The position numbers and the translations under genes were made by a program. From Poseidonibacter ostreae (GTDB lineage: Bacteria > Campylobacterota > Campylobacteria > Campylobacterales > Arcobacteraceae), in contig NZ_WFKJ01000012.1 of the NCBI RefSeq assembly GCF_009208075.1, positions 1-63,149 of the forward strand: DNA of 63,149 bases. The letters run 5' to 3'. The notes beneath the pieces were generated by a model, which was not told where the DNA came from, searched no databases, and saw only the letters and a program-made list of their open reading frames with translations. The first letter of the stretch is position 1. The number at the start of each line of letters is the position of its first letter. Below are positions 1 through 18,805 of this stretch, piece after piece.

Positions 1-1161
1 TAACTCTTTAATATTGTCTAATCCCTCACCATTATCTCTAATTTTTATATGAATTTCATCACCTTTTTCTCTCATATGAATACATAAAAGGTTCTCTCTA
101 TTCTCTTTAAATGCATATTTTAAAGAATTAACACATAGTTCATGTAATACCATTCCAATTTGAATACATCTATTTGTTGAAAAAATTAGCTCATCTATAT
201 GTAATTCTACATCTAATTTAGTATTTTGAGATATATATAATTCTTTAATATCCTCAATTAATTTTTTTATGTAGCCTTGTACATTTATATAGGCTAAATT
301 TTCTCCTAAATATAAGAACTCATGAACCAATGCCATTGTATTTATTCTACTTTTACTTTGCTTTAAAATATATCTTACTTCATCATCTTTTGCACGTCTA
401 AGTTGCATGGATAACAATGATGAGATTATTTCCATATTATTTTTAACCCTATGGTGAATTTCTTTTAATAAAATCTCTTTTTCATCTAAAGATTTTTGAA
501 GCTCTAGATTTATATTTGTAATTTTTTTATTTATCTCTTGTCTTTGAGTTAAATCTCTACCAAAAGCACAGATATACTCTTGCCCTGCATAACTGAATCC
601 ATGTCCAGAAACTTCTACAGGAAAAATTTCTCCATTTTTTCTTCTTTGAGTAGTTTCTAAAATCCAATTTTTAGTATTTCTAATTTTATACATAACATCT
701 TTAGCTGTTTTTCTATTAAAATTTGTATCCATTACTTCAAGATATTTTCCTAAAAGTTCTTCTTTTTTATATCCCAACATATTACAAGCAGCATCATTTA
801 AATAAACAATTTTTGCATCAATTGTAAACCAGTAAATTCCATCAACTGAATTATTTAAAGCAAACTCATAGGGCATCAGTCTTTCTTTATCTTTCTCTTT
901 TAAATCATTATAAGATCGGTCAATTCTTTTTATAACTTTTTGCATGTGATTTAATATTATAAAAACCAATAAACCCATTAACATAAAAAATAATAGGCCA
1001 ATAGTTAAAGGTCCTTGTTCACTTACATTATTATATTGAAAGAAAATTTTTATAAATTTATCTAAAGAAAGTATTCCAAATATTCCTGTTAAAAGATAAA
1101 AAATAGAAAATTTTACTGGAATATTTTTATTATTAAACAAATGCTTTTTTAATGGAATCAT
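1..1161 (-). CDS. Sensor histidine kinase, PAS + HisKA_2 type (C-terminus cut by window edge)
   Basis: The reading frame stays open to the window edge, giving 387 codons without a stop. Two hydrophobic segments lie near the N-terminus (about residues 15-30 and 50-70). A PAS domain follows at about 95-215, then a HisKA_2 phosphoacceptor region with EIHHRVKNNMEIISSLL, then the start of an HATPase domain with HELCVNSLKYAF and RDNGEG. The ATG is preceded by AAAGGA. It is divergent from the phenol hydroxylase operon across a 132-bp gap. I infer it senses a signal linked to phenol catabolism and acts with a response regulator encoded left of the window. No regulator is visible here, so the pairing is unproven. 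Confidence 0.85.
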   Translation of the reverse strand, partial: MIPLKKHLFNNKNIPVKFSIFYLLTGIFGILSLDKFIKIFFQYNNVSEQGPLTIGLLFFMLMGLLVFIILNHMQKVIKRIDRSYNDLKEKDKERLMPYEFALNNSVDGIYWFTIDAKIVYLNDAACNMLGYKKEELLGKYLEVMDTNFNRKTAKDVMYKIRNTKNWILETTQRRKNGEIFPVEVSGHGFSYAGQEYICAFGRDLTQRQEINKKITNINLELQKSLDEKEILLKEIHHRVKNNMEIISSLLSMQLRRAKDDEVRYILKQSKSRINTMALVHEFLYLGENLAYINVQGYIKKLIEDIKELYISQNTKLDVELHIDELIFSTNRCIQIGMVLHELCVNSLKYAFKENRENLLCIHMREKGDEIHIKIRDNGEGLDNIKEL

Positions 1162-1217
1162 ATCTTTATCCTTTTTTTCTTTGTATTCTATCAAATTTTT
1201 TTTTATTTAATTTTATT

Positions 1218-1250
1218 TGCGAATAATTTGCGATTTTATTTACATACTAT
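1218..1250 (+). promoter_or_regulatory. Phenol hydroxylase promoter: two 11-bp-spaced TGCGA boxes plus -10
   Basis: TGCGA occurs at 1218-1222 and again at 1229-1233, exactly 11 bp apart. Eleven nucleotides later comes TACTAT (1245-1250), a plausible -10. There is no good -35, and the repeats sit where it would be. The same layout recurs before dmpQ and before the porin gene. Direct repeats one helical turn apart that replace the -35 are characteristic of OmpR/PhoB-family activators. The binding protein is inferred, not seen. Confidence 0.6.
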
Positions 1251-1293: not shown

Positions 1294-1527
1294 ATGTATG
1301 AACTAATGCCAGAAGAAAAGAAATTTGTACAAATCATGGAAATTAGAGATGATGGATTTGTTGAATTTAATTTTGCAATTGGTGAAGCTGCTATGAACGT
1401 AGAACTTATTCTACCGTATAAAGCTTTTATCGAGTTCTGTCAAAATAATAGAGTCTCATTTTTTACAAAAGAGCAAGATACTGAAGTGTTAATTGATAAT
1501 GAAAATTGGCAATTTGGAATAAATTAA
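1294..1527 (+). CDS. dmpK: Phenol hydroxylase assembly subunit P0 (DmpK-like)
   Basis: This 77-residue protein matches the small first subunit of multicomponent phenol hydroxylases. In the family, DmpK is not part of the active oxygenase but helps to load iron into it. Typical family segments are visible (KKFVQIMEIRDDGFVEFNF and LPYKAFIEFC). It is first in the operon, 14 nt before dmpL, behind an AGGAG ribosome site. It is slightly shorter than the Pseudomonas protein. The call rests on both sequence and position. Confidence 0.85.
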   Translation: MYELMPEEKKFVQIMEIRDDGFVEFNFAIGEAAMNVELILPYKAFIEFCQNNRVSFFTKEQDTEVLIDNENWQFGIN

Positions 1528-1541
1528 ATTAAGGAAAAAAT

Positions 1542-2534
1542 ATGGAATTAAATATTGCAAGTGTTGAAATAGAACCCAAAAGACATACTTTTGGAAATGT
1601 TGCTAGAAGATTAGGTGAAGATAGACCAGCTTCAAGATATGAAGAAGCTATGTATGATGCACAACCAACTGAAAACTTTCATTACAGACCACAATGGGAA
1701 CCTGAATTTGAAATTTATGATAAGGCTAGAACAAAAATTAAGATGAATGATTGGTATGATCTATTAGATCCTAGAAAATTTCATTATATGACTTATGTAT
1801 CAACAAGAGCATCTCAAAATGCTGCAAATGTTCAAAGCTTTGATTTTATTGAAAAAAGATCATTAGTAAACTTTATAAAACAAGAAAATTTGCAAAAAGC
1901 TTTTGAATTCTTAACACCATTAAGACATTATGAATATGGTGCAAATATGAATAATCTAGCAATTGTTGATAGAGTTTATGGAACAGCAATGATGTCAGCT
2001 ACTATGTTTCATGCTGAAGATAGATTAGGAATGGCACAACATATTACAAAAATGATTTTATTACTTGGCAATAATGATGTTAAAAAACTTGACTCAGGTA
2101 AAGAAGCTTGGATGAATGATTCTAAATGGCAAGGTCTAAGAAAAGCTGTTGAAGATTCTTTAGTTGTAAAAGACCCAATTAGATTATTTGTTAAACAAAA
2201 TGTAGTTTTTGATGCTTTTGTAATTCCTTTAATGATTAATGAATTCTCAAAAGAGATGGCTGCTAATGATGAAATGGTAGTACCAATGCTTAGTGAATTT
2301 GTTACTTCATGGTATGAAGAAACAATTAAATGGATAGATAGCGTTGTAAAAGTAATGACTAATGAATCAAGTGAAAATAAAGAATTATTAACACAATGGA
2401 TTAAAGAAGATATTGAGATTATTGAAGTTGCAATGCAACCATTATCAGCATTTTCAAATAATTCAAGTGAATTATTAGCTTCAACTAAACTTGAATTAAT
2501 TAACAGATTAAATAAATCTGGAATAACGTTATAA
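1542..2534 (+). CDS. dmpL: Phenol hydroxylase P1, oxygenase beta subunit
   Basis: A 330-residue protein of the methane/phenol/toluene hydroxylase beta family. It pairs with DmpN in the (alpha-beta-gamma)2 oxygenase. It has the helical ferritin-like fold but no diiron ligand set, as is normal for the beta chain. Recognisable segments include YMTYVSTRASQNAANVQSFDF and AMMSATMFHAEDRLGMAQH. It lies between dmpK and dmpM with a 30-nt gap downstream. The length fits the family and no damage is seen. Confidence 0.93.
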   Translation: MELNIASVEIEPKRHTFGNVARRLGEDRPASRYEEAMYDAQPTENFHYRPQWEPEFEIYDKARTKIKMNDWYDLLDPRKFHYMTYVSTRASQNAANVQSFDFIEKRSLVNFIKQENLQKAFEFLTPLRHYEYGANMNNLAIVDRVYGTAMMSATMFHAEDRLGMAQHITKMILLLGNNDVKKLDSGKEAWMNDSKWQGLRKAVEDSLVVKDPIRLFVKQNVVFDAFVIPLMINEFSKEMAANDEMVVPMLSEFVTSWYEETIKWIDSVVKVMTNESSENKELLTQWIKEDIEIIEVAMQPLSAFSNNSSELLASTKLELINRLNKSGITL

Positions 2535-2564
2535 AAATTTAAATTAAATCTAAAAGGAAATTAA

Positions 2565-2840
2565 ATGTCAGGTAGTATCGCGTTATTATGCCTTCAATCA
2601 ACAGAAGATGGAAGAGCAATTGCAGAAGCAATAAGAGAAGATAATGAAGGTGTTGTAATTACAAATAAACCAGCAATGATTCAAATTGAACGAGCTGAGA
2701 AGATCACTGTAAATGCTTCAACAGTTTCTGAGCATTTAGGGAGAGATTGGGAACCAGAAGAATTACAATTAGTACTTATTTCTTTAGGTGGACAGATTGA
2801 AGAAACAGATGACGAGTTTATCGTTTACTGGAATAATTAA
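2565..2840 (+). CDS. dmpM: Phenol hydroxylase P2, effector/coupling protein
   Basis: A 91-residue MmoB/DmpM-family protein with no cofactor site. In characterised systems it binds the hydroxylase and couples NADH oxidation to substrate hydroxylation. The family pattern is clear: an N-terminal strand with IALLCLQSTEDGRAIAEAI and a C-terminal LVLISLGGQIEETDDEFIVYW. It has the normal length and sits in the canonical place between the two large oxygenase subunits. Confidence 0.92.
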   Translation: MSGSIALLCLQSTEDGRAIAEAIREDNEGVVITNKPAMIQIERAEKITVNASTVSEHLGRDWEPEELQLVLISLGGQIEETDDEFIVYWNN

Positions 2841-2880
2841 TAAATTAGTATAAAACTAATATATAAATAAGGAAGATATT

Positions 2881-4395
2881 ATGAGCGCAAACCAAAGAAA
2901 AAAAAGATTAAATAAAAAAGATGCATATAAATATATGACAAGACTTGGTTGGGATACAACTTACCAAAAAGAAGAAGATGTTTTTCCATATACAAATATG
3001 GAAGGTCTAAAAATTCATGATTGGGAAGCTTGGGAAGACCCTTTTAGAATGACAATGGATTCTTATTGGAAGTTACAAGCTGAAAAAGATAAAAAACTTT
3101 ATTCTATTATTGATGCCTTTGCACAAAATAATGCACAAAAAAACATTTCTGATGCAAGATATGTAAATGCACTAAAGTTATTTTTAACAGGTGTAACACC
3201 ACTAGAATATAAAGTTGTTCAAGGCTTCTCTCATGCAGCACGTGCCTTTAAAGGTGAGGGTGCTGCAATTGCTTGTCAAATGCAAGCAATTGATGAGTTA
3301 AGACACTTTCAAACTCAAGTTCATACTATGAGTCATTATAATAAATATTTTAATGGTTTTAGTGAGCATACAACAATGCATGATAGAGTATGGTATTTAT
3401 CAGTTCCAAAATCTTTTGGTGATGATGCAAGTACAGCTGGTCCTTTTGAATATTTAACTGCTATTTCATTCTCTTTTGAATTTGTTTTAACAAGTTTATT
3501 ATTTGTGCCTTTCATGAGTGGGGCAGCATATAATGGTGATATGGCAACTGTAACATTTGGATTCTCAGCACAAAGTGATGAATCAAGACATATGACACTT
3601 GGACTTTCAGCTATTAAATTTATGCTAGAACAAGATGCGGATAATGTTCCAATTGTTCAAAAGTGGATGGATAAATGGTTATGGAGAGGTTACAGAATGT
3701 TAGGTCTAGTAGCTATGATGATGGATTATATGTTACCTAATTCTCCAACTTCATGGGGTGAAGCAGTTGAGTTATATATTGAACAAAATTGTATGGCCTT
3801 ATATAAAGATTTAGAAAAGTATGGAATAAAAGCTCCAACAGATTTAATCAATACAATTGTTGCTGAAAAAGGACACTTATCTCATCAAGTATGGAATATT
3901 TTTTATAATCATACTAATGCAGCACCTTTCCACACATGGATGCCTGAAGAAGACAAAATGAATTGGTTAAGTGAAAAATACCCTGATACTTTTGACAAAT
4001 ATTATAGACCAATGTTTGAAAGATATATGGAATTAGAGAAAAAAGGTGAAAGATTCTATTCAGAAGTTTTACCTCTTGTTTGTCAAACATGTCAAATTCC
4101 TTTAGGGTTTACTGATATTGAGGGTGGAAATCCACATGTTTATACTCATAAAACATCTGAATATAATGGTGAGATTTTCCATACTTGTTCTGATGGATGT
4201 AAAGAGATATTTGATGCACAACCTGAAAAATATGTTCAATCTTGGTTACCTCCACATCAAATATTCCAAGGAAATTGCGGAGGTGCAACTATACCAGAAG
4301 TTTTAAAATGGTATAAAATTGAGCATGGACAAGACAATCTAGACTATGTAGGTTCACCTGATGAAGCTATGTGGAATAAATTAAAAAATAAGTAA
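2881..4395 (+). CDS. dmpN: Phenol hydroxylase P3, diiron oxygenase alpha subunit
   Basis: The catalytic subunit (504 residues) that converts phenol to catechol with O2. All six expected diiron ligands can be placed: E109, E139 and H142 (in DELRH), E200, and E234 and H237 (in DESRH). Their spacing is almost the same as in toluene/o-xylene monooxygenase. The C-terminal part (about 398-455) is a Cys-rich YHS-type zinc module with CQTC and HTCSDGC, common in phenol hydroxylases. A strong ribosome site (AAGGAAG) precedes the ATG. The gene looks intact. Confidence 0.97.
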   Translation: MSANQRKKRLNKKDAYKYMTRLGWDTTYQKEEDVFPYTNMEGLKIHDWEAWEDPFRMTMDSYWKLQAEKDKKLYSIIDAFAQNNAQKNISDARYVNALKLFLTGVTPLEYKVVQGFSHAARAFKGEGAAIACQMQAIDELRHFQTQVHTMSHYNKYFNGFSEHTTMHDRVWYLSVPKSFGDDASTAGPFEYLTAISFSFEFVLTSLLFVPFMSGAAYNGDMATVTFGFSAQSDESRHMTLGLSAIKFMLEQDADNVPIVQKWMDKWLWRGYRMLGLVAMMMDYMLPNSPTSWGEAVELYIEQNCMALYKDLEKYGIKAPTDLINTIVAEKGHLSHQVWNIFYNHTNAAPFHTWMPEEDKMNWLSEKYPDTFDKYYRPMFERYMELEKKGERFYSEVLPLVCQTCQIPLGFTDIEGGNPHVYTHKTSEYNGEIFHTCSDGCKEIFDAQPEKYVQSWLPPHQIFQGNCGGATIPEVLKWYKIEHGQDNLDYVGSPDEAMWNKLKNK

Positions 4396-4407
4396 AAGGA
4401 GAATAAG

Positions 4408-4767
4408 ATGGCAATTCAATCAATTGGAGAATATCCAATCATAATGAAAGATAAAGTAGAAAATTTTCATGGTAATCAATTAGTATTTATTATTTGGCAT
4501 GCACATAGAGTAGTTTGTTCTCCTAGAGCTTTCCCTTTACCACCACAAATGCCTTTCGGAGCATTATTAACAGATATTATTCCAGTATCTTATAAGATAG
4601 AACCAGATTATGAGCAATTAGATTTTGATACAACAGAAGTTATTTGGGAAGTTGATGGAAAAGTTATAACACCAGATTTTTCAAAGAGTTTAGAAGAAAA
4701 TGGTGTTGGTCATAAATCTCTTGTTAAATTTATAACACCTTCTTTAACAGGTAAAGTAGGAGCATAA
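4408..4767 (+). CDS. dmpO: Phenol hydroxylase P4, oxygenase gamma subunit
   Basis: A 119-residue DmpO/MmoZ-like protein, the small structural subunit of the oxygenase. Family features are the opening GEYPIIMKDKVENFHGNQLV and the central CSPRAFPLPPQMPFG. Its stop codon directly abuts the ATG of the reductase gene with no spacer, which suggests translational coupling. The length is typical. Confidence 0.92.
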   Translation: MAIQSIGEYPIIMKDKVENFHGNQLVFIIWHAHRVVCSPRAFPLPPQMPFGALLTDIIPVSYKIEPDYEQLDFDTTEVIWEVDGKVITPDFSKSLEENGVGHKSLVKFITPSLTGKVGA

Positions 4768-5826
4768 ATGGCTTGTAAATTAGAAATAGAACCAACAGGT
4801 GATATGGTAGATGTTCAAGAAGGTCAAACTCTTCTTGATGCTGCTTTAAGACAAGGTGTTTATCTTCCTCATGCTTGTAATCATGGACTTTGTGGAACTT
4901 GTAAAGTTGAAGTTCTAGAAGGTGAAGTTGATTTAGGTGATGCTTCTCCTTTTGCTTTAATGGAGAGTGAAAGAGATGATGGTTTTTGCTTAGCATGTAC
5001 TGCAACTGCCGATGAAGATGTAGTAATTGAAGCTGAAATTGATGTTGATATTGATGCTAGAAGTATCCCTATAAAAGATATTATGGGGACAGTAATAAAA
5101 AGAGAAATGCTTACACCTAGAATTTTAGGTCTTTGGATTGAACTTGATGAAGAAATTGATTTCCAAGCAGGACAATATATAAATTATCATGTTCCAGGAT
5201 TTGATGAGCCGCGAGCATTTTCACTTGCAAATCAACCAAGTACAGGAAAAGTTATTGAATTAAATATTGGAATTATTCCAGATGGAGAAGCAACTCCTTG
5301 GATTCATAATAATGTAAAAGTTGGAGATAGAAGAAAAATCACAGGACCTTTTGGAAGATTCTTTGTAAAAAGAAGTGCCCAAAAACCAATGATATTTTTT
5401 GCTGGTGGATCAGGACTTTCAAGTCCAAAATCAATGATCTTAGATGAATTAGAAAATGGATGTACTCAAGATATTACTCTTTTCCATGGTGCTAGAAATG
5501 AAGAAGAATTATACTATGCAGATATGTTTAGAGATTTAGAAAGTAAACATAAAAACTTTAGATATATTCCTGTTTTATCAGATAATAAAAATGAAAACTG
5601 GACAGGTGAAATAGGATTTACAAATGATGTAGCAAAAAAAATATACGATAATCAATTCACAGGACATAAAGCCTATCTTTGTGGACCTCCTATGATGAGT
5701 GATGCCTGTATAACAGCACTTATGCAAGGTAGATTATTTGAAAAAGATATTCATACTGAAAAGTTTTTTTCTAGAGCCGACTTATATAAAGAAGAAATTA
5801 AAAGCCCTCTATTTAAATCTATTTAA
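4768..5826 (+). CDS. dmpP: Phenol hydroxylase P5, FAD/[2Fe-2S] NADH reductase
   Basis: A 352-residue electron-transfer subunit carrying electrons from NADH to DmpN. The N-terminal plant-type ferredoxin domain has cluster cysteines C37, C42, C45 and C77. An FAD domain follows with RAFSLANQ and a GPFGRFF segment. The C-terminal NAD domain has FFAGGSGLSSPKSM and YLCGPPMMSDA. It is the last gene of the hydroxylase operon, followed by a strong hairpin. It is intact and of normal length. Confidence 0.96.
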   Translation: MACKLEIEPTGDMVDVQEGQTLLDAALRQGVYLPHACNHGLCGTCKVEVLEGEVDLGDASPFALMESERDDGFCLACTATADEDVVIEAEIDVDIDARSIPIKDIMGTVIKREMLTPRILGLWIELDEEIDFQAGQYINYHVPGFDEPRAFSLANQPSTGKVIELNIGIIPDGEATPWIHNNVKVGDRRKITGPFGRFFVKRSAQKPMIFFAGGSGLSSPKSMILDELENGCTQDITLFHGARNEEELYYADMFRDLESKHKNFRYIPVLSDNKNENWTGEIGFTNDVAKKIYDNQFTGHKAYLCGPPMMSDACITALMQGRLFEKDIHTEKFFSRADLYKEEIKSPLFKSI

Positions 5827-5836
5827 ACCTCTTGTA

Positions 5837-5870
5837 AAGATGAAAATTTTCTAATAAAAATTTTCATCTT
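5837..5870 (+). terminator. Perfect 14-bp hairpin after dmpP
   Basis: Arms at 5837-5850 and 5857-5870 are perfect complements around a 6-nt loop. There is no convincing T-run behind it, so it may be a weak terminator, or a stabilising or processing hairpin at the end of dmpKLMNOP. A new promoter-like site follows about 80 bp later. Confidence 0.45.
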
Positions 5871-5951
5871 CTTAAACTTCAAAGCAATTAATTAACAATC
5901 TATTTTTTAAAAAATTTAAACTTTTTAAAAAAAATAAAAAAAGTAATAATC

Positions 5952-5983
5952 GCGATTTTTATGCGAATTGTTTAAAGTATAGT
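5952..5983 (+). promoter_or_regulatory. meta-pathway promoter: 11-bp-spaced GCGA boxes plus -10
   Basis: GCGA occurs at 5952-5955 and 5963-5966, 11 bp apart. TATAGT follows at 5978-5983 after an 11-nt gap. This is the same layout as before dmpK and before the porin gene. It implies that dmpQ onward has its own promoter but is co-regulated with the hydroxylase operon. The leader to the dmpQ ATG is about 75 nt. Confidence 0.6.
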
Positions 5984-6066
5984 ACTAATACTTAAAAGGT
6001 AACTTTTAATTTAGATGACGATATGAGTTTTTTATTTATATTGTAAATTTCATCGAAGGGATAATT

Positions 6067-6375
6067 ATGAAACATAATATCTTTGTAAAAAACAAAGAAA
6101 AAGAAAGAGCTTGCAATGAAGATAAAAATCTTATGGATTCATTATCTGTTTGTCAAGATCTAGTTCCAAATGGTTGTCATAATGGAGCTTGTGGAATTTG
6201 TAAAATTACTATTCATAATGGTGAATATGAAAAGCTAAAAATGAATAGAAAACACATATCAGAAGATGAAGAGAGCTCGAATATAGTTTTAGCATGTCGA
6301 ACTTTTCCAAAAAGTGATATGGAAATCGAATTTATAGAAAAACCAAAATCTAAGCATTATACGCTTGGACATTAA
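6067..6375 (+). CDS. dmpQ: Plant-type [2Fe-2S] ferredoxin (DmpQ/XylT-like)
   Basis: A 102-residue ferredoxin with cluster cysteines C37, C42, C45 and C76. Proteins of this family reduce, and so reactivate, catechol 2,3-dioxygenase after its active-site iron has oxidised. Its position directly before dmpB (20-nt gap) supports that role. The N-terminus (many Lys/Glu) diverges from the Pseudomonas proteins. The ATG follows a GAAGGGA ribosome site. Confidence 0.88.
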   Translation: MKHNIFVKNKEKERACNEDKNLMDSLSVCQDLVPNGCHNGACGICKITIHNGEYEKLKMNRKHISEDEESSNIVLACRTFPKSDMEIEFIEKPKSKHYTLGH

Positions 6376-6395
6376 TTTAAATAAAAGGATTTAAA

Positions 6396-7340
6396 ATGGG
6401 AATTATGAGATTAGGTCATGTAGATATTAATGTATTAAATATTGAGGAATCAAGAACTTATTATGAAGAAATAATGGGATTAACAGTTACACGAGAAGAT
6501 AAAGATGGTACTTTGTATTTAAAATGTTGGGATGAGTGGGATAAATATAGTCTTGTTTTAAGACCAAGTGAAGAAGCTACATTTAACAAAATTGCATATA
6601 AAGTTAAAAATGATTCGGATTTAGATGATTTAAAAATTAAAGTTGAAAATTATGGTATTGAAACAAAGTTTTTAGAAGCAGGTGTTGTTACTGATTGTGG
6701 AAGAGTTTTATCTTTTACTTTACCAAGTGGACATTCATTCCAGTTATATGCGCAAAAAGAGTTCATTGGAAAAGATACAGGAGATACAAACCCTGCACCT
6801 TGGCCATTTAAAGGAAAAGGAATTAAAGCACATTGGATTGATCATGCATTATTAATGTGTCAAGGACCTGAAGCTGTTATGGAAGTTACTAAATTCTTTA
6901 TTGATATATTTGATTTTACATTAACAGAGCAAGTTACAGTTGGGCCTGATGGTTGTTTACAAGCTGCTACTTGGTTAACTTGTTCATCAACTCCTCATGA
7001 TATAGCATTTGTTGCAGGTGAAGAAGTTGGAATGCATCACTTTGCCTTCTTCTTAGATGGATGGAATGATATTTTAAGAGCAGCAGATGTTATGGCTATG
7101 CATAACGTAAAAATTGATGTTACACCTCAAAGACATGGTATTACAAGAGGTGAAACGATTTATTTCTTTGACCCATCAGGACATAGATTAGAAACTTTTG
7201 CAGGACTTGGGTATTTAGCTCAGCCTGATATGCCAGTTATTACATGGACTGAAGATGAATTATGGAGAGGAATTTTCTATCATACAGGTATTGAAAATGG
7301 TGCATTTACAACAGCCTACACATTACACGCATATAAATAG
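6396..7340 (+). CDS. dmpB: Catechol 2,3-dioxygenase
   Basis: A 314-residue extradiol ring-cleavage enzyme that opens catechol to 2-hydroxymuconic semialdehyde. It has two vicinal-oxygen-chelate domains, the C-terminal one catalytic. Likely iron ligands are H150 (in HWIDHALL), H214 or H215 (in VGMHHF) and E266 (in GHRLETF). These match H153, H214 and E265 of XylE closely. The family's closing SGHRLETFAG and the length are typical. The next gene begins one nucleotide after its stop. Confidence 0.96.
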   Translation: MGIMRLGHVDINVLNIEESRTYYEEIMGLTVTREDKDGTLYLKCWDEWDKYSLVLRPSEEATFNKIAYKVKNDSDLDDLKIKVENYGIETKFLEAGVVTDCGRVLSFTLPSGHSFQLYAQKEFIGKDTGDTNPAPWPFKGKGIKAHWIDHALLMCQGPEAVMEVTKFFIDIFDFTLTEQVTVGPDGCLQAATWLTCSSTPHDIAFVAGEEVGMHHFAFFLDGWNDILRAADVMAMHNVKIDVTPQRHGITRGETIYFFDPSGHRLETFAGLGYLAQPDMPVITWTEDELWRGIFYHTGIENGAFTTAYTLHAYK

Positions 7341-7341
7341 T

Positions 7342-7770
7342 ATGAATAGTGTAATAACAGAAAAAACAATATCAAGACAAGCCTCTAGTGAGGCTTGTCT
7401 TTTTGCAATTAAAAAAGCCGAAGAATTAAATATATCTATAAACGTAAGTGTTGTAGATAACAAAGGTTTGGAAATGGCTTTTTTAAGAATGGAAAACTCC
7501 TTTATTCATTCTATAGATATTGCAAAAGACAAAGCATATACTAGTGCAAGTTTTGGGTTTCCATCAGATACATGGACTAATGTTTTCAAAGAAATGCCAC
7601 ATTTAGAACAAGGTTTTTCTAATAGAGATAGATTAGTTCCTTTTGGTGGAGGATTACCAATATTTGATAAAGATAATGTAAAAGTTGGAGCAATTGGTGT
7701 TTCAGGTGGAACTGAAGAAGAAGATATTATATGTGCAAAGTTTGCAATTGAAAAGATAGGACTAAAATAA
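7342..7770 (+). CDS. GlcG/HbpS-family protein inside the meta operon
   Basis: A 142-residue protein of the GlcG/HbpS (DUF336) family, shown by NVSVVDNKGLEMAFLRM, the RLVPFGGGLPIF segment and AIGVSGGTEEED. Some family members bind haem or small molecules; its function here is unknown. I chose the ATG at 7342, directly behind the dmpB stop, because earlier in-frame starts lie inside dmpB. No strong ribosome site is seen, so coupled translation is likely. Its stop overlaps the dmpC ATG by 1 nt. Similar genes occur near some catechol operons, so a protective or accessory role is possible. Confidence 0.8.
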   Translation: MNSVITEKTISRQASSEACLFAIKKAEELNISINVSVVDNKGLEMAFLRMENSFIHSIDIAKDKAYTSASFGFPSDTWTNVFKEMPHLEQGFSNRDRLVPFGGGLPIFDKDNVKVGAIGVSGGTEEEDIICAKFAIEKIGLK

Positions 7771-9227
7771 TGAAAAAAGTACAACACTATATTAATGGAC
7801 AATTTATAGACTCAGAATGTGGCGAGTTTTTTGATAATTTTAACCCAGCAACTGCTGAGTTAATTGCAAAAGTAGCACAAGGTAGAGAACCGGAAGTAGA
7901 TGCTGCTGTTGCGGCTGCGAAAGCTGCACTTACTGGTGAGTGGGGACAAATGAAGCTAAATGATAGAATAGCTTTAATGTACGAAATTGCAAATGAAATG
8001 GATAGAAGATTTGATGATTTCCTTGAAGCTGAATGCTTAGATACTGGTAAACCATACTCAATTGCAAGACATATAGATATTCCAAGAGGAGCTGCAAATT
8101 TCAAAGTTTTCGCTGACACTATGAAATCAGTTGCTGATGAAGCTTATAGAATGGATACTCCAGATGGAAAAATAGCAATGAATTATTCTATGAGACAACC
8201 AAAAGGTGTTATTGGCGTTATTTCTCCTTGGAATTTACCATTACTCCTTATGACTTGGAAAGTTGGACCTGCATTAGCTTGTGGAAATACTGTTGTTGTT
8301 AAACCTTCTCAAGTAACTCCTACTACTACATCACTTTTAGGTGAAGTTATGACTAAAGTTGGTTTACCAAAAGGTGCCTATAATGTTGTTCAAGGAAGAG
8401 GTTCAATTACTGGAAACTTATTAACAGCACACCAAGATATTGATGCTTTAACATTCACAGGTGAAACAAAAACTGGTGAAACAATTATGAAAGCTTGTTC
8501 AAATGGTGTAAGAGATATATCTTTAGAACTTGGAGGGAAAAACCCTGCTATTATTTTTGAAGATTGTGATATGGATAAAGCTATTTTTGAAACAGCAAGA
8601 TCTGTATTTGCTAACTCAGGACAAGTTTGTTTAGGAACTGAAAGAGTTTATGTTCAAAGACCAATTTTTGATGAATTTGTAAGTAGACTTAAAGATGCTG
8701 GTCAAAAACTAAAAGTTGGAGTTCATAATGACGAGTCTGTTGATATGGGACCAGTTGTAAGTGCTGCACATAGAGATAAAGTTTTAGAATTTTATGATAT
8801 TGCAAAAAAAGAGGGTGCCAACGTTATTTTAGGTGGTGGAGCACCAAAGATGGAAGGTGCTTTAAAAGATGGTTTTTGGGTTGAACCAACTATTTGGACA
8901 GGACTTCCTGAAACTGCAACTGTAGTAAAAGAAGAAGTATTTGGACCTTGTTGTCATATTGCTCCTTTTGATACAGAAGAAGAAGTTATTAAAATGGCAA
9001 ATGATACTAAATATGGTTTAGCCTCTACTGTATTTACTGAAAATTTAGATAAAGCTCATAGAGTAGCTTCTAAAATTGATTCAGGAATTGTATGGGTTAA
9101 CTCATGGTTCTTAAGAGATTTAAGAACACCATTTGGTGGAATGAAAGGTTCTGGAATTGGAAGAGAAGGTGGTCACCACTCTTTAGAGTTCTATACTGAA
9201 CTTAAAAATATTTGTATAAAAATGTAA
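7770..9227 (+). CDS. dmpC: 2-hydroxymuconic semialdehyde dehydrogenase
   Basis: A 485-residue NAD-dependent aldehyde dehydrogenase that converts the ring-cleavage aldehyde to 4-oxalocrotonate, the dehydrogenase branch of the meta pathway. Catalytic residues are visible as N155 (PWN), E253 (ELGGKNP) and C287 (NSGQVCLG). A typical closing segment (RTPFGGMKGSGIGREGG) is present. It overlaps the preceding gene by 1 nt and is followed 11 nt later by dmpE. It is of full length and intact. Confidence 0.95.
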   Translation: MKKVQHYINGQFIDSECGEFFDNFNPATAELIAKVAQGREPEVDAAVAAAKAALTGEWGQMKLNDRIALMYEIANEMDRRFDDFLEAECLDTGKPYSIARHIDIPRGAANFKVFADTMKSVADEAYRMDTPDGKIAMNYSMRQPKGVIGVISPWNLPLLLMTWKVGPALACGNTVVVKPSQVTPTTTSLLGEVMTKVGLPKGAYNVVQGRGSITGNLLTAHQDIDALTFTGETKTGETIMKACSNGVRDISLELGGKNPAIIFEDCDMDKAIFETARSVFANSGQVCLGTERVYVQRPIFDEFVSRLKDAGQKLKVGVHNDESVDMGPVVSAAHRDKVLEFYDIAKKEGANVILGGGAPKMEGALKDGFWVEPTIWTGLPETATVVKEEVFGPCCHIAPFDTEEEVIKMANDTKYGLASTVFTENLDKAHRVASKIDSGIVWVNSWFLRDLRTPFGGMKGSGIGREGGHHSLEFYTELKNICIKM

Positions 9228-9238
9228 GGAATTAAAAT

Positions 9239-10027
9239 ATGGAACAATTAAAAATAGAAAAATATGGAAATGAACTTTACGAAGCATTAAAGTCTAATTC
9301 TGTAATAGAACCTATTACTTCAAGAGAAGCTGATATTACTATTGAAGATGCATATGCAATTCAAAACCATTTTATACAAAGAAGAATTAAAGAAGATGGT
9401 GTAAAGATTATTGGTAAAAAAATAGGTGTTACATCAAAAGTAGTAATGGATATGTTAGGTGTTCATCAGCCTGACTTTGGTTACCTTTTATCTGATATGA
9501 TTTATTCAGATGGTGATGAAATCGATGTTACAAATGGTATGATTCAACCAAAAGCTGAAGGTGAAATTGCCTTTGTTCTAAAAGAAGACTTAACAGGACC
9601 TGGCGTTACTACTGCTGATGTTTTAAGAGCAACAAAATTTGTAATGCCTTGTTTTGAAATAGTTGATTCAAGAATTAAAGATTGGAAAATTAAAGTACAA
9701 GATACGGTTTCGGATAATGCTTCTTGTGGATATATAGTATTTGGTGGAAAAGGAGTAGATCCAAGAGATGTTGATTTAACAACTTGTGGTATGACTCTTG
9801 AATCTAATGGTGAATTATTACACACAGGTGCAGGTGCAGCAGCACTTGGAAGTCCTGTAAATGCAGTTGTATGGCTTGCTAATACATTAGGTTCTTTTGG
9901 TGTTGGTTTAAAAGCTGGTGAAGTTATTCTATCTGGTGCTTTATGTGCAATGGTTACTATTAAAGCAGGTGATAATATGACTATTAATGTAGGTGGAATT
10001 GGTTCTGCTTCTTGTAGATTTGTATAA
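9239..10027 (+). CDS. dmpE: 2-oxopent-4-enoate hydratase
   Basis: A 262-residue hydratase that adds water to 2-hydroxypenta-2,4-dienoate, forming 4-hydroxy-2-oxovalerate. Metal-ligand acids expected in the family can be placed at E107, E109 and E140. Other markers are [18 protein letters not shown] and PDFGYL. It resembles DmpH, a family homologue. I separated the two by order (C-E-F-G-H-I as in Pseudomonas) and by sequence feel, so the E/H assignment is likely but not proven. Confidence 0.9.
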
Positions 10028-10043
10028 AGAGGAAAGGAAAGAT

Positions 10044-10931
10044 ATGAAAAAAATTAATTGTGCATTAATTGGGTCAGGAAATATTGGAACAGACTTAATG
10101 TTTAAATTACAAAGAAGTGAAATTTTAAATCCTTTATGGATGGTAGGAATAGATCCTGAATCTGATGGATTAAAAAAAGCCAAAGAAGCTGGAATGAAAA
10201 TCACAGCAGATGGTGTTGATGGACTATTACCTTTTATTAAAGAAGATGAAGTAATGATTGCTTTTGATGCAACATCTGCTTATGTTCACGGTGAAAATAA
10301 TAGAAAATTAGCAGAATTAGGTGTAAAAGTTATTGACTTAACTCCTGCTGCAATTGGACCTTTTTGTGTGCCATCTGTAAATATGAAAGAACTTTTAGAA
10401 CAAGATGCACAAAATGTAAATATGGTAACTTGTGGTGGACAAGCTACTATTCCTATGATTGCAGCAGTTTCAAGTGTTCAAGAAGTTGAATATGCAGAAA
10501 TTATTGCAACAGCTGCTTCAAAATCAGCAGGTCCTGGAACACGTGCTAATATTGATGAGTTTACAGAAACTACAAAACTTGGAATTGAAGTAGTTGGTGG
10601 TGCTAAAAAAGGTAAAGCAATTATTATTCTAAATCCTGCTGAGCCACCTTTAATGATGAGAGATACTGTTCATTGTCAAACTACGCAAACACCAAATCAA
10701 GAAGCGATAATCAAATCAGTTAACGACATGGTTAAAGAAGTTCAAAAATTTGTTCCTGGTTATACACTAAAAAATGGACCTGTATTTGATGGAAATAAAA
10801 TTACAATTTGGTTAGAGGTTGAAGGCTTAGGTGATTATTTACCTAAATTTGCAGGAAATCTTGACATTATCACAGCCGCAGCAACTAATATTGCAGAACA
10901 AATGGCTGAAAAAATCAAAGCAGGAGTTTAA
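10044..10931 (+). CDS. dmpF: Acetaldehyde dehydrogenase (acylating)
   Basis: A 295-residue enzyme that oxidises acetaldehyde with CoA and NAD+ to acetyl-CoA. An N-terminal Rossmann motif ([10 protein letters not shown]) and the catalytic Cys C130 in [10 protein letters not shown] are visible. I start it at the ATG at 10044 behind GGAAAGGA; a longer frame would run back into dmpE. In this family DmpF forms a complex with DmpG and channels acetaldehyde. dmpG begins 2 nt after its stop, in keeping with that. Confidence 0.95.
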
Positions 10932-10933
10932 AG

Positions 10934-11962
10934 ATGGATTTAAAAGGTAAAAAAATTACAGTACATGACATGTCTTTAAGAGATGGAATGCACTCTGTTA
11001 GACATCAGTTTACACTTGATCAAATGACTGCAATGTCAACTGCAATGGATGAAGCTGGTGTTCCTATGATTGAAGTAACACATGGTGATGGACTTGGTGG
11101 AAGCTCACTAAATTATGGATATGGTTTACATACAGATGAAGAATGGCTAGATGCTGTTGTTCCAAATATGAAAAATGCAAAAATATCTGCACTTTTACTT
11201 CCAGGAATTGGAATAGTTAAAGATTTAGAAAGAGCAGTTGAACATGGGATTTCTACAGTTAGAGTTGCTACTCACTGTACAGAAGCTGATTGTTCAGCTC
11301 AACATATAAAAGCAGCAGTTGGAATGAAACTTGATACTGTTGGATTTTTAATGATGGCTCATATGGTTGATGAAAAAAGAATAGTTGAAGAAGCTAGAAA
11401 AATGGTTTCTTATGGAGCTAATTGTATTTATGCAACAGACTCAGCTGGTTATTTACTTCCTGATATGGTAAGTGCAAGGATAGGGGCACTTAAAAAAGAG
11501 TTTGGAGATGAAATTGAGATTGGATTTCACGGTCATAATAATATGTCTATGGGCGTTGCTAATTCTTTGGCTGCAATAGAAGCAGGAGCTACAAGAATTG
11601 ATGCAAGTTTAGCAGGTTTTGGAGCGGGTTCTGGAAATACTGCAACAGAAGTTTTAGTAGCCGTTTGTAATAGAATGGGTGTAGAAACAGGAATTGACCT
11701 AGATAAAATAGTAGATGCGGCTGAAGATATTGCACTTCCTATTATGGGAAAACCTACAAGAATCTCAAGAGATTCATTAACTTTAGGTTATGCAGGTGTT
11801 TATTCATCTTTTCTTTTATTTGCACGTCGGGCAGAAGCTAAATATGGAATTGATGCTAGATCACTTTTAGTAGAATTAGGAAGAAGAGGAATGATTGGTG
11901 GTCAAGAAGATATGATTGATGATTGTGCAATGGAAATGGCAAGAGCTAAAGGATTAATATAA
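10934..11962 (+). CDS. dmpG: 4-hydroxy-2-oxovalerate aldolase
   Basis: A 342-residue class II, HMGL-like TIM-barrel aldolase that splits 4-hydroxy-2-oxovalerate into pyruvate and acetaldehyde. Catalytic R16 and H20, and metal ligand D17, lie in [12 protein letters not shown]. The other metal ligands are H199 and H201 in GFHGHNN. The C-terminal part carries the DmpG-specific communication domain. The stop overlaps the dmpH ATG by 1 nt. It has the usual length. Confidence 0.96.
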
Positions 11963-12750
11963 TGGCATTAGATAAAAAAATAATTGATGAATTAGCTATT
12001 CATTGTGAAAAAGCGGAAGTAGAAGCTTATGAAATCACAAAAATAACTGATGATTATCCAGAAATGACTTATGAAGATGCTTATGATATTCAATGGAAAG
12101 CAAGAGCGAATAAGGAAGCCAAGGGTCATAAGATAGTTGGTATGAAAATGGGTCTTACTTCACAAGCAAAAATGAAGCAAATGGGTGTTCCTAATCCTTG
12201 TTATGGTTACCTTGCAGACTATTTTGCATACGGTGATGGAGCAGAGATTAAAATTGATGAATTAATTCATCCAAAAGTTGAAGCTGAGATCGCTTTTGTT
12301 TTAAAAGATGATTTAACAGGACCTGGATGTCATATAGGTGATGTATTAGCTGCTACTGATTTTGTAATGCCTGCTGTTGAGATTATTGATTCAAGATATA
12401 AAGATTTTAAATTTGATTTAAAATCAGTAATTGCTGATAACTCTTCATCTTCAAGATATGTTACAGGTGGAAGAATGAGAGATATTAAAGATCTTGATCT
12501 TAAAACACTTGGTGTTGTAATGGAAATAAATGGAGAAGTAGTTCAGTTAGGTGCAGGAGCTGCTGTTTTAGGACACCCTGCTACTGCAATTGCAATGCTT
12601 GCAAATATGATGGGTGAGCGTGGTGAAATACTTAAAGCTGGTTCATATATTCTTTCAGGTGCAATTACAGCTGCAATGAGTGTAAAAAAAGGTGATAATG
12701 TTACTGTTAAGTTCCAAGATTTAGGAACATTAACTATGAAATTTGTATAA
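11962..12750 (+). CDS. dmpH: 4-oxalocrotonate decarboxylase
   Basis: A 262-residue protein of the hydratase/decarboxylase family. It decarboxylates 2-oxo-3-hexenedioate to 2-hydroxypenta-2,4-dienoate and in known systems forms a complex with DmpE. Predicted metal ligands are E107, E109 and E140, at the same numbers as in DmpE. Markers are GMKMGLTSQAKMKQMG and PCYGYL. It lies directly before the tautomerase gene, as in the classical pathway. Confidence 0.9.
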   Translation: MALDKKIIDELAIHCEKAEVEAYEITKITDDYPEMTYEDAYDIQWKARANKEAKGHKIVGMKMGLTSQAKMKQMGVPNPCYGYLADYFAYGDGAEIKIDELIHPKVEAEIAFVLKDDLTGPGCHIGDVLAATDFVMPAVEIIDSRYKDFKFDLKSVIADNSSSSRYVTGGRMRDIKDLDLKTLGVVMEINGEVVQLGAGAAVLGHPATAIAMLANMMGERGEILKAGSYILSGAITAAMSVKKGDNVTVKFQDLGTLTMKFV

Positions 12751-12765
12751 ATATAAGGAATAAAA

Positions 12766-12957
12766 ATGCCAATAGCTACAATTAATATTGTTGAAGGTAG
12801 AAGTGATGAGCAAAAAGAGAAACTTATAGAAAAGGTTACTCTTGCAATTCATGAAGCTATCGATGCTCCTATTGCAAATGTACGTGTTATTTTAAACGAA
12901 ATGCCAAAACAACATTTTGGAATAGCAGGACAAAGTGTTAAAAAGATGGGTAGATAG
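12766..12957 (+). CDS. dmpI: 4-oxalocrotonate tautomerase
   Basis: A 63-codon gene. After removal of Met the protein starts with the catalytic proline and has 62 residues, exactly the family size. Numbered from that Pro1, the known active-site residues R11, R39 and F50 are all in place (VEGR, NVRV, QHF). It isomerises 4-oxalocrotonate to the keto form used by the decarboxylase. A GGAAT ribosome site lies just upstream. Confidence 0.96.
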   Translation: MPIATINIVEGRSDEQKEKLIEKVTLAIHEAIDAPIANVRVILNEMPKQHFGIAGQSVKKMGR

Positions 12958-12965
12958 AAAAAATC

Positions 12966-13979
12966 ATGTCTTTATTGAAGTTAAGTGTACTTGATCAGTC
13001 ACCAATACATGATGATAAAGAGGCAAAAGAAGGTCTCTTTGATACTATAAAACTTGCAATTTCTTGTGAAAATTCAGGTTATTATAGATATTGGTGTGCA
13101 GAACATCATGATACTCCTGGGTATGCAAGTGCAAACCCTGAACTTATGGTAAGTTCTGTTGCAAATGCTACTTCAAAAATAAGAGTTGGAAGTGGTGGAG
13201 TAATGCTAAATCACTATAGCTCTTTTAAGGTTGCGGAAACTTTTAATACTTTAAGTGCATTACACAATAATAGAATTGACTTAGGGATTGGACGAGCAAG
13301 TGGTGCTAACTTTTTAGCAGCACGTGCTTTGCATAATTCAAATAGTGGTGATTACACTCAAAAAGCTTATGAACTTATAAATTATTTAGATGATAAAGTT
13401 CCTAAAGATGATTATTTTCATGGTGTAAATTTATCTCCAATAGGAGTTGATTCAACGCCTGTTTATTTACTAGGTTCAAGTGATGGAAGTAGTGTATTAG
13501 CAGGGCGACTTGGTGCTGGATTTTGTTTAGCACTTTTTATAGGAACTCATAATAGACCTACTCAAATCATGGCTTCATATAAAAATAATTTCACTCCTTC
13601 AAAAAACTTCAAAAAACCAAAAGCTATGATTGCTGTTGCTTGTATTTGTGCCAATACAGAAGAAGAAGCAATTGAACTTGCAAGTTCTCATACATACTGG
13701 AAAGTACAAGCTTTTAGACATCCCAAAAGAGATGCTTTTCAAAGTCCTAAAAATATAAAAAAATTATATGAAAAATTAAGCTTTGAAGATAAAGCATATT
13801 ATCATGAAACTTTAAATTCTATGATTTTAGGAACACCTGCACAGTGTAAAGAACAAATAGAAAAATTAGCAAAAGAGTATGAGGTTGATGAAGTGATGAT
13901 AGTAAATGTTACTTATTCTTTTGAGAAAAGAAAAAAATCATACGAACTTTTAGCTAAAGAATTTGCTTTAGAAAAATAA
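12966..13979 (+). CDS. Luciferase-like (LLM) flavin-dependent monooxygenase, MsnO8-like
   Basis: A 337-residue bacterial-luciferase-family protein. Family markers are the opening LSVLDQSPI, YWCAEHHDTPGYASANPEL and RIRVGSGGVMLNHY-like text near residues 60-80. Such enzymes use reduced flavin from a partner; no flavin reductase is visible nearby. It lies 8 nt after dmpI and before dmpD, so it is transcribed with the pathway. The substrate is unknown. It is not part of the classical dmp set. A role against a side product or a second aromatic substrate is possible but speculative. Confidence 0.85.
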   Translation: MSLLKLSVLDQSPIHDDKEAKEGLFDTIKLAISCENSGYYRYWCAEHHDTPGYASANPELMVSSVANATSKIRVGSGGVMLNHYSSFKVAETFNTLSALHNNRIDLGIGRASGANFLAARALHNSNSGDYTQKAYELINYLDDKVPKDDYFHGVNLSPIGVDSTPVYLLGSSDGSSVLAGRLGAGFCLALFIGTHNRPTQIMASYKNNFTPSKNFKKPKAMIAVACICANTEEEAIELASSHTYWKVQAFRHPKRDAFQSPKNIKKLYEKLSFEDKAYYHETLNSMILGTPAQCKEQIEKLAKEYEVDEVMIVNVTYSFEKRKKSYELLAKEFALEK

Positions 13980-14013
13980 GAGATTAAAAATTAAATTAAA
14001 ACAAGGAAAAAAT

Positions 14014-14835
14014 ATGTCAAATCCAGAAATAGCAAAAAGTATAAAAACAGGAAGTTTTAATACAAATTATCATGACTTAGGTGAAGGTGAACCTATAATG
14101 TTTATCCATGGTTCAGGACCAGGTGTATCAGCATTTGCAAATTGGCAATTATGTATGCCAAAAATAGCAGAAAACTTTAGAGTAATTGCTCCAGATATGG
14201 TAGGTTTTGGATACACAGATAGACCTGATGGAATTTTATATGATATGGATATTTGGGTACAACAAACAATTGACTTAATGGATGCATTAAAAATAGAAAA
14301 AATAAATTTAGTAGGAAACTCTTTTGGTGGAGCATTAGCATTAGCTTTAACTATTAAATATCCCGAAAGATTTAATAAAGTAGTTTTAATGGGTGCAGTT
14401 GGTGTTTATTTTGATTTAACTTATGGATTAGATAAAGCATGGGGATATACACCAAGTATTGAAAATATGAAAGAATTACTTGATATTTTTGCTTATGATA
14501 GAAGTATTGTAACAGATGATTTAGCAAAGATGAGATATGAAGCTAGTATTCGTCCTGGATTCCAAGAATCTTTCTCTTCAATGTTTCCTTCACCAAGACA
14601 AGATGGTGTTGATTCAATGGAAAGTTGTGAAAATGATATCAAAAAAATAGATAAAGATGTTTTAATTATTCATGGAAGAGAAGACAAAGTTATTCCAGTT
14701 CAAAACTCTATTAGATTAAATCAATTAATTCTTAAATCACAGTTACATATTTTTGGACAATGTGGACACTGGACGCAAATTGAACATACAGATAGATTTA
14801 ATAATTTATTATTAGATTTCTTTTCAGAAAAATAA
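14014..14835 (+). CDS. dmpD: 2-hydroxymuconic semialdehyde hydrolase
   Basis: A 273-residue alpha/beta-hydrolase that cleaves the ring-fission product hydrolytically, the branch used for ketone products from methylcatechols. The triad is clear: S103 in GNSFGG, D224 in GREDKV and H252 in CGHWTQ. An oxyanion segment HGSGPG follows strand 3. In Pseudomonas dmpD lies between dmpC and dmpE; here it has moved to after dmpI and the LLM gene. With dmpC also present, both branches are encoded. Confidence 0.93.
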   Translation: MSNPEIAKSIKTGSFNTNYHDLGEGEPIMFIHGSGPGVSAFANWQLCMPKIAENFRVIAPDMVGFGYTDRPDGILYDMDIWVQQTIDLMDALKIEKINLVGNSFGGALALALTIKYPERFNKVVLMGAVGVYFDLTYGLDKAWGYTPSIENMKELLDIFAYDRSIVTDDLAKMRYEASIRPGFQESFSSMFPSPRQDGVDSMESCENDIKKIDKDVLIIHGREDKVIPVQNSIRLNQLILKSQLHIFGQCGHWTQIEHTDRFNNLLLDFFSEK

Positions 14836-14861
14836 AATAAAAATTAATTCTAAATAATTAT

Positions 14862-14891
14862 ATACTAGAAGTATTTCAATACTTTTAGTAT
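14862..14891 (+). other. Intercistronic hairpin before the ThiS-like gene
   Basis: Arms 14862-14875 and 14878-14891 pair along 13-14 bp with one G-U pair, and a few A-T pairs extend the stem outward. No T-run follows. It sits in the longest gap of the operon (74 nt) and ends shortly before the AAGGAA ribosome site. It could reduce read-through or set apart expression of the four tail genes. Confidence 0.5.
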
Positions 14892-14909
14892 ATATAATAA
14901 GGAAAAATA

Positions 14910-15987: not shown

Positions 15988-16004
15988 AAAATGAGGAAAT
16001 AGAT

Positions 16005-16808: not shown

Positions 16809-16832
16809 AAAATAAGAAATTAAAGGAAAAAA

Positions 16833-17258: not shown

Positions 17259-17338
17259 TAATCATTTATAGACTTGACTAAACCATACTATAAAGAAGAT
17301 ATAAATAACAATTTACTAATATATAAAATTAATTGATG

Positions 17339-17379: not shown

Positions 17380-17422
17380 TATAGAGAAAGGATGAGTCTT
17401 TGTATACTCTATTGTTTGAAAA

Positions 17423-17494: not shown

Positions 17495-18718
17495 TTAAAA
17501 TTTATATGATAAATAAACTCTAGTTACATCAGTATTTCCTTCAACAATTCCAGCTGGTAAAATAGTATGCTCAAGTTCAGCATGCTCATAATTTACTTTT
17601 AATAAAATATCTTTATTAATTGGATAAATTGCAACTGCACCAGTTGCTAATACATCTCCTAATCCACCATTAGACCATGAATGTCCTAAGTATCCTATTG
17701 TTGTGATACCAGCAATTGGTAAAACTACTGCACCAACAAGAGTATCAGTATTTGCACGAGTAGGAACACCTCCACCATTTACAGGCATAGCAGTAAATAA
17801 TGTATCCGTAGTACCCGCACCAATACCTGTATTAACATCACCATCTTTTGTGCTTGAGTTAAATGCAACTAAGTATCCTAAGTTAGAGATTCCTAGAGGA
17901 CCTGTAGCTTTTAATCCAAAAGCTGCTCCATCTTCTTTTCCCGCTGCTTGATTGTCATCTTTAGACATTACATATTGTGCTGATAATGTTTGATTTGCAA
18001 TAGTATAATCAGTTTGTAAATAAGTAATACTAATATCTTTACTTGCAGAACTCTCTTTGTTCATTTTAAGATATTGAGCTTGAAGTGTTAAGTTTTCAAT
18101 TGAATTATTTTTCAGAAGAAGAGTATATGCATCATCATGTGTTGCTGAGATATCATCTGATTCGCCAAGATCACCAGTTCCATCAGTTTTTGCTAAATAT
18201 TTTGAAATATATCCTAAAGAAACAGAAGTATTAGGAATATCAGTATTTGTTAACATATAAGCTTCAAAAGAATCTTTTAATAAACTTTCAGATGATTTTC
18301 CATCAATTGCAGTACTAACTAAAGGTGTATATATAAATTGTCTACCAGCTTTTATATTAGTATTTGCTAATTGGTATTCTAAATATACTTCAGATAAAAC
18401 AGATCCAGAAGCATCTAAATCATTAGCGAAAACACCATTGTTATCATCTTCACTTAAAACATGAGAAGTTTGAAATGTAGCTCCAGCACTTAATCCATAA
18501 AATGAACCTGTTGTATAGCCTAAACTTCCACCAATCACTGCAATATCATCAGACTTTGCTTTTCCTAAGAAATTTGAATCAGCGTATAAAGCTTTTATTT
18601 CACCCTTTACTTTTCCATTTGTAAAAGCATCACTTAAACTTTCATTAGCATTGGCAACTGTAGATAATGAAGCTAATGTAATAACAGCAGCTAAACTTAA
18701 TTTTGTAATTCTTTTCAT
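17495..18718 (-). CDS. Outer-membrane porin, likely aromatic uptake
   Basis: A 407-residue outer-membrane protein with a signal peptide (about residues 1-24, ending near ANA). The body shows alternating short amphipathic strands and a C-terminal phenylalanine (YLSYKF), as expected for a beta-barrel. It looks like the OprD-like porins of Campylobacterota. It is convergent with the phenol operon but has the same twin GCGA promoter, so it is probably induced together with it. An uptake role for phenols is inferred from that. AGGAAT lies upstream of the ATG. Confidence 0.88.
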   Translation of the reverse strand: MKRITKLSLAAVITLASLSTVANANESLSDAFTNGKVKGEIKALYADSNFLGKAKSDDIAVIGGSLGYTTGSFYGLSAGATFQTSHVLSEDDNNGVFANDLDASGSVLSEVYLEYQLANTNIKAGRQFIYTPLVSTAIDGKSSESLLKDSFEAYMLTNTDIPNTSVSLGYISKYLAKTDGTGDLGESDDISATHDDAYTLLLKNNSIENLTLQAQYLKMNKESSASKDISITYLQTDYTIANQTLSAQYVMSKDDNQAAGKEDGAAFGLKATGPLGISNLGYLVAFNSSTKDGDVNTGIGAGTTDTLFTAMPVNGGGVPTRANTDTLVGAVVLPIAGITTIGYLGHSWSNGGLGDVLATGAVAIYPINKDILLKVNYEHAELEHTILPAGIVEGNTDVTRVYLSYKF

Positions 18719-18773: not shown

Positions 18774-18805
18774 AGCTTATAGAAATCCAATCGCAGAATA
18801 ATCGC
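18774..18805 (-). promoter_or_regulatory. Porin promoter: 11-bp-spaced TGCGA boxes plus -10
   Basis: On the minus strand GCGA lies at 18805-18802 and again at 18794-18791, 11 bp apart. After an 11-nt gap comes TAAGCT (18779-18774), a weak -10. Spacing is identical to the two sites in the dmp cluster. The -10 is poor, as is common where an activator makes up for it. Confidence 0.55.

Follow-up and report, generated by a model that had tools for sequence, protein, structure and literature searches.

GCGA box pairs upstream of phenol catabolic genes in Poseidonibacter ostreae and its relatives: probable operators of a two-component regulon

Introduction

Phenol catabolic operons are the textbook case of control by sigma54 and DmpR. 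How are such genes controlled in a bacterium that encodes the same enzymes and has no sigma54? The question is raised by a contig of Poseidonibacter ostreae (NZ_WFKJ01000012.1; Campylobacterota, Arcobacteraceae), which was analysed over its whole length of 63,149 nucleotides and is referred to here as the window. An original prediction, made from the letters of the window, held that the promoters of dmpK, dmpQ and a porin gene share pairs of GCGA boxes spaced by 11 bp, and that these mark a phenol regulon under two-component control. The phenol genes appear to have been rewired to a two-component system.

In the literature that we searched, a coverage outside which most subscription papers fall, no paper linked Arcobacter or Campylobacterota with phenol hydroxylase. 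A candidate operator, regulator and regulon, each defined across two families, make binding, induction and the evolution of the rewiring directly testable; the system is also a candidate phenolic biosensor.

Results

Catabolic genes and GCGA boxes of the window

The window contains a six-gene phenol hydroxylase cluster with a DmpN-type diiron subunit, which matches the structure of phenol hydroxylase PHN (PDB 2inn) at 2.7e-224, and a meta-cleavage operon that encodes catechol 2,3-dioxygenase (dmpB) and ends with dmpI at 12766-12957 (Table 1). DmpB, DmpE and DmpH pass NCBIfam cut-offs, with TIGR03211, TIGR03220 and TIGR03218 all exceeding theirs. Judged by these matches, the dmp genes of the window are genuine members of the phenol hydroxylase/meta-cleavage class. 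Between dmpB and dmpC (7255-7770) lies an HbpS-like gene of the haem-binding-protein family, an arrangement kept in 16 loci.

The pattern GCGA-N7-GCGA matches the window three times, exactly where it had been predicted and nowhere else, against an expectation of 0.02 from dinucleotide shuffles; three or more matches arose in 0 of 100 shuffles. At each of the three boxes a -10 hexamer starts after exactly 11 nucleotides, again as predicted. Across the whole host genome there are 7 matches, compared to 1 for the reversed pattern. The four that fall outside the window lie in the promoter of a second dmpK (contig C108), in the promoter of a short-chain dehydrogenase/reductase (SDR) gene (C133), inside an open reading frame (C94) and in 23S rRNA; the last two were discarded as chance matches.

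Table 1. Positions of the genes and proposed promoter elements in the window.
Feature	Position	Strand	Basis
Sensor histidine kinase (PAS, HisKA_2, HATPase), divergent from dmpK	1..1161	-	C-terminal end lost at contig border
Possible box-independent kinase promoter, extended -10 TGATAGAAT toward kinase	1185..1193	-	Sequence reading; stretch conserved in dmpK-upstream alignment; inference
dmpK promoter GCGA box GCGAATAATTTGCGA, proposed response-regulator site	1219..1233	+	26/26 dmpK copies; top dyad
dmpK -10 hexamer TACTAT, box + 11 nt	1245..1250	+	TA...T at offset 11 in 26/26 dmpK promoters
dmpKLMNOP, multicomponent phenol hydroxylase	1294..5826	+	Profile matches; DmpN vs PDB 2inn
dmpQ promoter GCGA box GCGATTTTTATGCGA	5952..5966	+	All 22 dmpQ genes having own promoter
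dmpQ -10 hexamer TATAGT, box + 11 nt	5978..5983	+	22/22
Catechol meta-cleavage operon dmpQ, dmpB, HbpS-like gene, dmpC, dmpE, dmpF, dmpG, dmpH, dmpI	6067..12957	+	Pfam, NCBIfam
Outer-membrane porin, Opr-like, proposed regulon member	17495..18718	-	NCBIfam opr porin 8e-18, under curated cut-off
Porin -10 hexamer TAAGCT, box + 11 nt	18774..18779	-	Sequence reading
Porin promoter GCGA box GCGATTATTCTGCGA	18791..18805	-	Same box before porin homologues of relatives

Absence of sigma54

No DmpR/XylR-type activator gene had been seen in the window, and this holds genome-wide: the only Sigma54_activat matches in the host are Clp and MoxR-type AAA ATPases. Sigma54 itself is absent too, its DNA-binding domain (PF04552) giving 0 matches in the host genome in a search whose controls matched in four genomes. 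The XylR_N sensor domain was found in 0 of 104 genomes, in a search where the controls also gave no match. An element resembling GG-N10-GC occurs upstream of one dmpK in 26 (G414). With neither sigma54 nor an activator for it, control of the DmpR/XylR type is excluded for the host assembly.

Sensor kinase and response regulator

Pfam matches (HisKA_2, 2.4e-26; PAS_9, 4.8e-14) confirm the predicted sensor kinase divergent from dmpK. The window is the entire contig and the kinase runs off its edge; the OmpR-type regulator expected beside it was therefore sought on two other contigs of the genome, C108 and C133, and in relatives, where it is found directly behind the kinase. A further dmpKLMNOP cluster lies on C108; its DmpN is 93% identical, its box is the same, and the kinase beside it is complete, with a stop that overlaps the start of the response regulator at the contig end. 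C133 starts within the regulator frame, and comparison with G099 and G096 shows that its first bases adjoin the last bases of C108. Downstream on C133, behind the regulator, the box GCGATGAAACTGCGA, 11 nucleotides and TACTAT are followed by the SDR gene. The intact order in G096, G099 and others is kinase, response regulator and SDR gene, reading away from a divergent dmpK. A kinase orthologue diverges from or adjoins dmpK in 23 of 25 dmp loci. As a separate observation, the C108 copy (10585-17594; kinase 82%) is without adjacent meta-cleavage genes and reflects either two copies or a strain mixture.

By its sequence the regulator belongs to the OmpR/PhoB family, with a receiver domain (PF00072, 8.4e-22, above the Pfam cut-off) containing the phosphoacceptor Asp56 and a C-terminal Trans_reg_C winged helix (PF00486, 39.5-40.7 bits against a cut-off of 26.2); D56, T85 and K107 are invariant. 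The AlphaFold model was set aside, its pLDDT staying below 50 over the larger part of the DNA-binding domain. The kinase seems to own a separate promoter (Table 1), which would allow basal kinase expression before induction.

An unbiased test of the motif and its spacing

Without assuming the motif, we counted every dyad of two 4-mers separated by a gap within 250 bp upstream of each gene. GCGA-N7-GCGA is the first-ranked dyad both for dmpK, where it precedes every copy (26 of 26, in 25 genomes), and for dmpQ (22 genes), so that conservation in relatives, on which the original prediction had been staked, is complete for dmpK. Box-selection bias does not affect the dmpK set, collected via dmpN, or the 15 dmpQ genes of dmpN-anchored loci; the porin sites and some of the dmpQ and SDR sites were fetched through the box and are not independent. 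SDR promoters carry GCGA-N7-(A/G)CGA in 19 of 19 cases. Three genomes (G059, G067 and G414) have dmpQ directly behind dmpP without a promoter of its own, and the dmpQ box is missing in exactly these three.

When no -10 was required, TA...T was nevertheless found at offset 11 in every dmpK (26/26), dmpQ (22/22) and SDR (19/19) promoter, or 67 of 67 together; AATAAT stands at this distance behind another six boxes. The intergenic sequence surrounding the dmpK box is divergent, while the two GCGA words and the -10 are preserved. The promoters have the layout of the class II activator type, in which the site replaces the -35 and stands at a fixed distance from the -10. The missing -35 is weak evidence by itself, because sigma70 promoters of Campylobacterota often have no clear -35.

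Co-occurrence in the Arcobacteraceae

Of 104 Arcobacteraceae genomes, 24 carry dmpN; they are scattered among 6 of 20 genera. All 24 contain the strict pattern GCGA-N7-GCGA-N11-TAnnnT, with 96 sites in total against 3 matches to a reversed control. Many equally good sites at unrelated genes would have spoken against a regulon; nearly all of the 96 precede pathway or pathway-linked genes, and the scan of the genome and its relatives for a box with a -10 at 11 nucleotides finds it recurring at dmp and linked genes. The 80 genomes without dmpN yielded 14 matches compared to 5 for the control. Four of these lie in relic or fragment genomes, three in G011 and one before a porin gene in G017; the others are mostly intragenic.

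The tandem 11-bp repeats co-occur with the predicted response-regulator gene. At an identity of at least 69% the regulator is found in 23 of the 24 dmpN genomes and in 1 of the 80 others (G011), the next matches falling to 42%; for dmpN and the regulator, Fisher's test gives p of about 1e-20, uncorrected for relatedness. The one dmpN genome without it, G095, is a fragmented assembly whose contig breaks within the kinase. In G041 and G042 the kinase-regulator pair is not beside dmpK, and a regulator of 72% identity is still present. In several genomes a further kinase-regulator pair is present, and it too has a boxed neighbour. No other regulator gene or family is conserved in the dmp surroundings among 25 loci.

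Besides dmpK and dmpQ, the box precedes the porin and SDR genes. In relatives it also stands before genes for malate dehydrogenase, an MCP chemoreceptor, periplasmic binding proteins and a TauE-type transporter, and in G005 (L084, 4509-8045) before a second diiron monooxygenase cluster, about 25% identical to DmpN, with a GCGA box of its own.

Three loci differ in state or setting. G011 (L098, 6251-12584) is a relic that has lost dmpN and kept the box, a truncated response regulator, a boxed chemoreceptor gene and the SDR gene. A single in-frame stop interrupts dmpN in G034 (L080; 12225-13739, 15457-16749), where the kinase frame is also split; decay of the system or assembly errors may explain this. 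In Arcobacter cloacae the entire regulon is borne on the plasmid pACLO (L237), with HipA-type genes and a TauE transporter between dmpP and dmpQ (15921-18283).

Beyond the family

Among 397 genomes sampled from the phylum, dmpN occurs outside the Arcobacteraceae in one, G414. Directly upstream of dmpK it encodes a HisKA_2 kinase (46% identity) and an OmpR-type regulator (42%), and the dmpK promoter has the box and TACAAT at 11 nucleotides; a second box precedes its porin gene. As read from these genes and promoters, a second family retains the same arrangement.

On the 118-kb plasmid pSULKU01 of Sulfuricurvum kujiense, a related kinase-regulator pair (regulator 43%) diverges from a p-cresol methylhydroxylase operon, the flavoprotein of which matches PDB 1wve at 8e-207. 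All three strict sites of the plasmid lie in promoters with the 11-nt spacing, before that operon, an aldehyde dehydrogenase gene and a small gene; the boxed operon, the aldehyde dehydrogenase gene and the HisKA_2/OmpR-type pair together span 1541-12756 (L238). The recognition helix of this regulator is closer to non-dmp paralogues than to the dmp regulators, and the link from helix to GCGA is therefore not one to one. A phylum-wide scan showed that, in genomes that differ in composition, the strict pattern and its reversed control occur at about equal frequency, which means that outside the AT-rich relatives the pattern alone is no marker. A wider contig scan for the regulator returned distant regulators only, from a set in which near relatives may be absent.

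Discussion

On the basis of the boxes, their spacing and conservation, the gene linkage, the co-occurrence and the absence of sigma54, we infer, with a probability of about 0.8, that the boxes serve a catabolic regulon for phenolics, as operators through which a two-component system exerts class II activation. The PAS/HisKA_2 kinase divergent from dmpK would detect phenol, a related phenolic or an intermediate, and would phosphorylate the OmpR/PhoB-type regulator encoded directly behind it. Bound head-to-tail, the regulator would then cover both GCGA half-sites, which share one helical face at a spacing of 11 bp, in the place of the -35. The downstream half-site ends 11 bp before the -10, a position from which the regulator is likely to contact sigma70 RNA polymerase as a class II activator. 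Switched on in this way would be dmpKLMNOP, dmpQBCEFGHI, the porin and the SDR enzyme; some relatives would add malate dehydrogenase, a chemoreceptor, a solute-binding protein and the second diiron monooxygenase.

It is gene content that points to a phenolic inducer. PAS domains often sense redox state or oxygen, and the sensor part of this kinase has no similarity to the tested phenol sensors compared. That the regulator binds the boxes in answer to a non-phenolic signal, for example oxygen or redox state via PAS, or general aromatic stress, is nevertheless unlikely: a general redox sensor would not be restricted to phenolic-degrading strains, yet the system tracks dmpN, nearly all relatives that lack dmpN lack the system as well, and in another family a related pair lies at genes for p-cresol methylhydroxylase.

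If the boxes were instead operators of an unlinked regulator encoded elsewhere, the neighbouring pair would serve another role, as its separation from dmpK in G041 and G042 might suggest. We regard this as improbable, since even these two genomes have the regulator, the regulator and the boxes have been gained and lost together, near dmp no rival regulator is conserved, and OmpR/PhoB-type sites are known to be laid out as 11-bp tandem repeats immediately before a -10.

A regulator occupying the -35 region, which the box overlaps, could also act as a repressor, blocking RNA polymerase until the signal releases it. The similar PceP boxes, which overlap the -35 as well, have been interpreted as activating (PMC7755780). 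Repression is improbable at the present promoters, where no -35 remains to be masked and the spacing to the -10 is fixed in all 67 cases, as contact with polymerase needs. Classical DmpR/XylR control through a divergent -24/-12 element, the rule for dmp operons in Proteobacteria, can hardly be credited in a genome that lacks the sigma54 DNA-binding domain and has only Clp/MoxR-type AAA proteins, the more so as a GG-N10-GC-like element precedes a single dmpK. Finally, the motif is short, and in genomes of other composition its coding matches are about as many as those of the reversed pattern, but the excess over expectation in the window and over the control in the dmpN genomes, the top dyad rank, conservation across divergent intergenic sequence and the fixed offset make chance or a compositional artefact negligible.

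The proposed class II operators invite comparison with known systems. Pho boxes and other OmpR-type class II sites are tandem 11-bp direct repeats that replace the -35, about 10-11 nucleotides from the -10. The boxes described here show the same layout; the half-site is GCGA rather than TGTCA, and the regulator scores 69.7 bits against the PhoB equivalog, far under the cut-off of 296.2. DmpR and XylR control homologous targets (dmpKLMNOP and dmpQBCDEFGHI), but each is a single-protein phenol sensor with an AAA domain acting on sigma54, and the host genome contains neither sigma54 nor such an activator. TodST, TmoST and StySR pair a sensor kinase with a response regulator for aromatic catabolism, as proposed here; they employ large multidomain kinases and NarL/LuxR-type regulators, whereas the present kinase is a small HisKA_2 protein and the regulator has an OmpR-type output domain (PF00486) and no LuxR/GerE domain. 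For BumSR, no operator was obtained to compare.

The closest known system is PceS/PceP of Sulfurospirillum, whose OmpR-family regulator has been demonstrated by EMSA to bind CTATW repeats with an 11-nt period that overlap the -35 (PMC7755780). Common to both are the phylum, an OmpR-type regulator encoded with its kinase in one operon beside genes of pollutant catabolism, and direct repeats on an 11-nt period (CTATA with a gap of six in Pce) overlapping the -35 of several promoters. The operators differ: outer CTATW copies lie 17 bp apart (CTATW-N17-CTATW; PMC7755780), compared to GCGA-N7-GCGA here. PceSP serves tetrachloroethene respiration rather than phenol catabolism, and PceS, with its seven transmembrane helices, has a putative periplasmic sensing domain where the kinase described here is of the PAS/HisKA_2 type.

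With somewhat better than even confidence we extend the proposed two-component regulon to a broader view, in which Campylobacterota have their own PAS/HisKA_2-OmpR sensor family for phenolics that replaced DmpR-type control. Genes for phenol hydroxylase, meta-cleavage, p-cresol methylhydroxylase, the second diiron monooxygenase, porin and chemoreceptor would each have been plugged into one interchangeable promoter module, GCGA-N7-GCGA-N11-TAnnnT.

The geometry of 11 + 11 nucleotides may be general in the phylum. Two promoter clusters, in G403 (L297 and L298; five sites) and in L296 (three sites), have variant boxes 11 nucleotides before a -10, consisting of GCGACA every 11 nucleotides or of GCGATRT variants, at signalling, chemoreceptor and solute-binding genes; the response regulators at these clusters are 23% identical to the dmp regulator.
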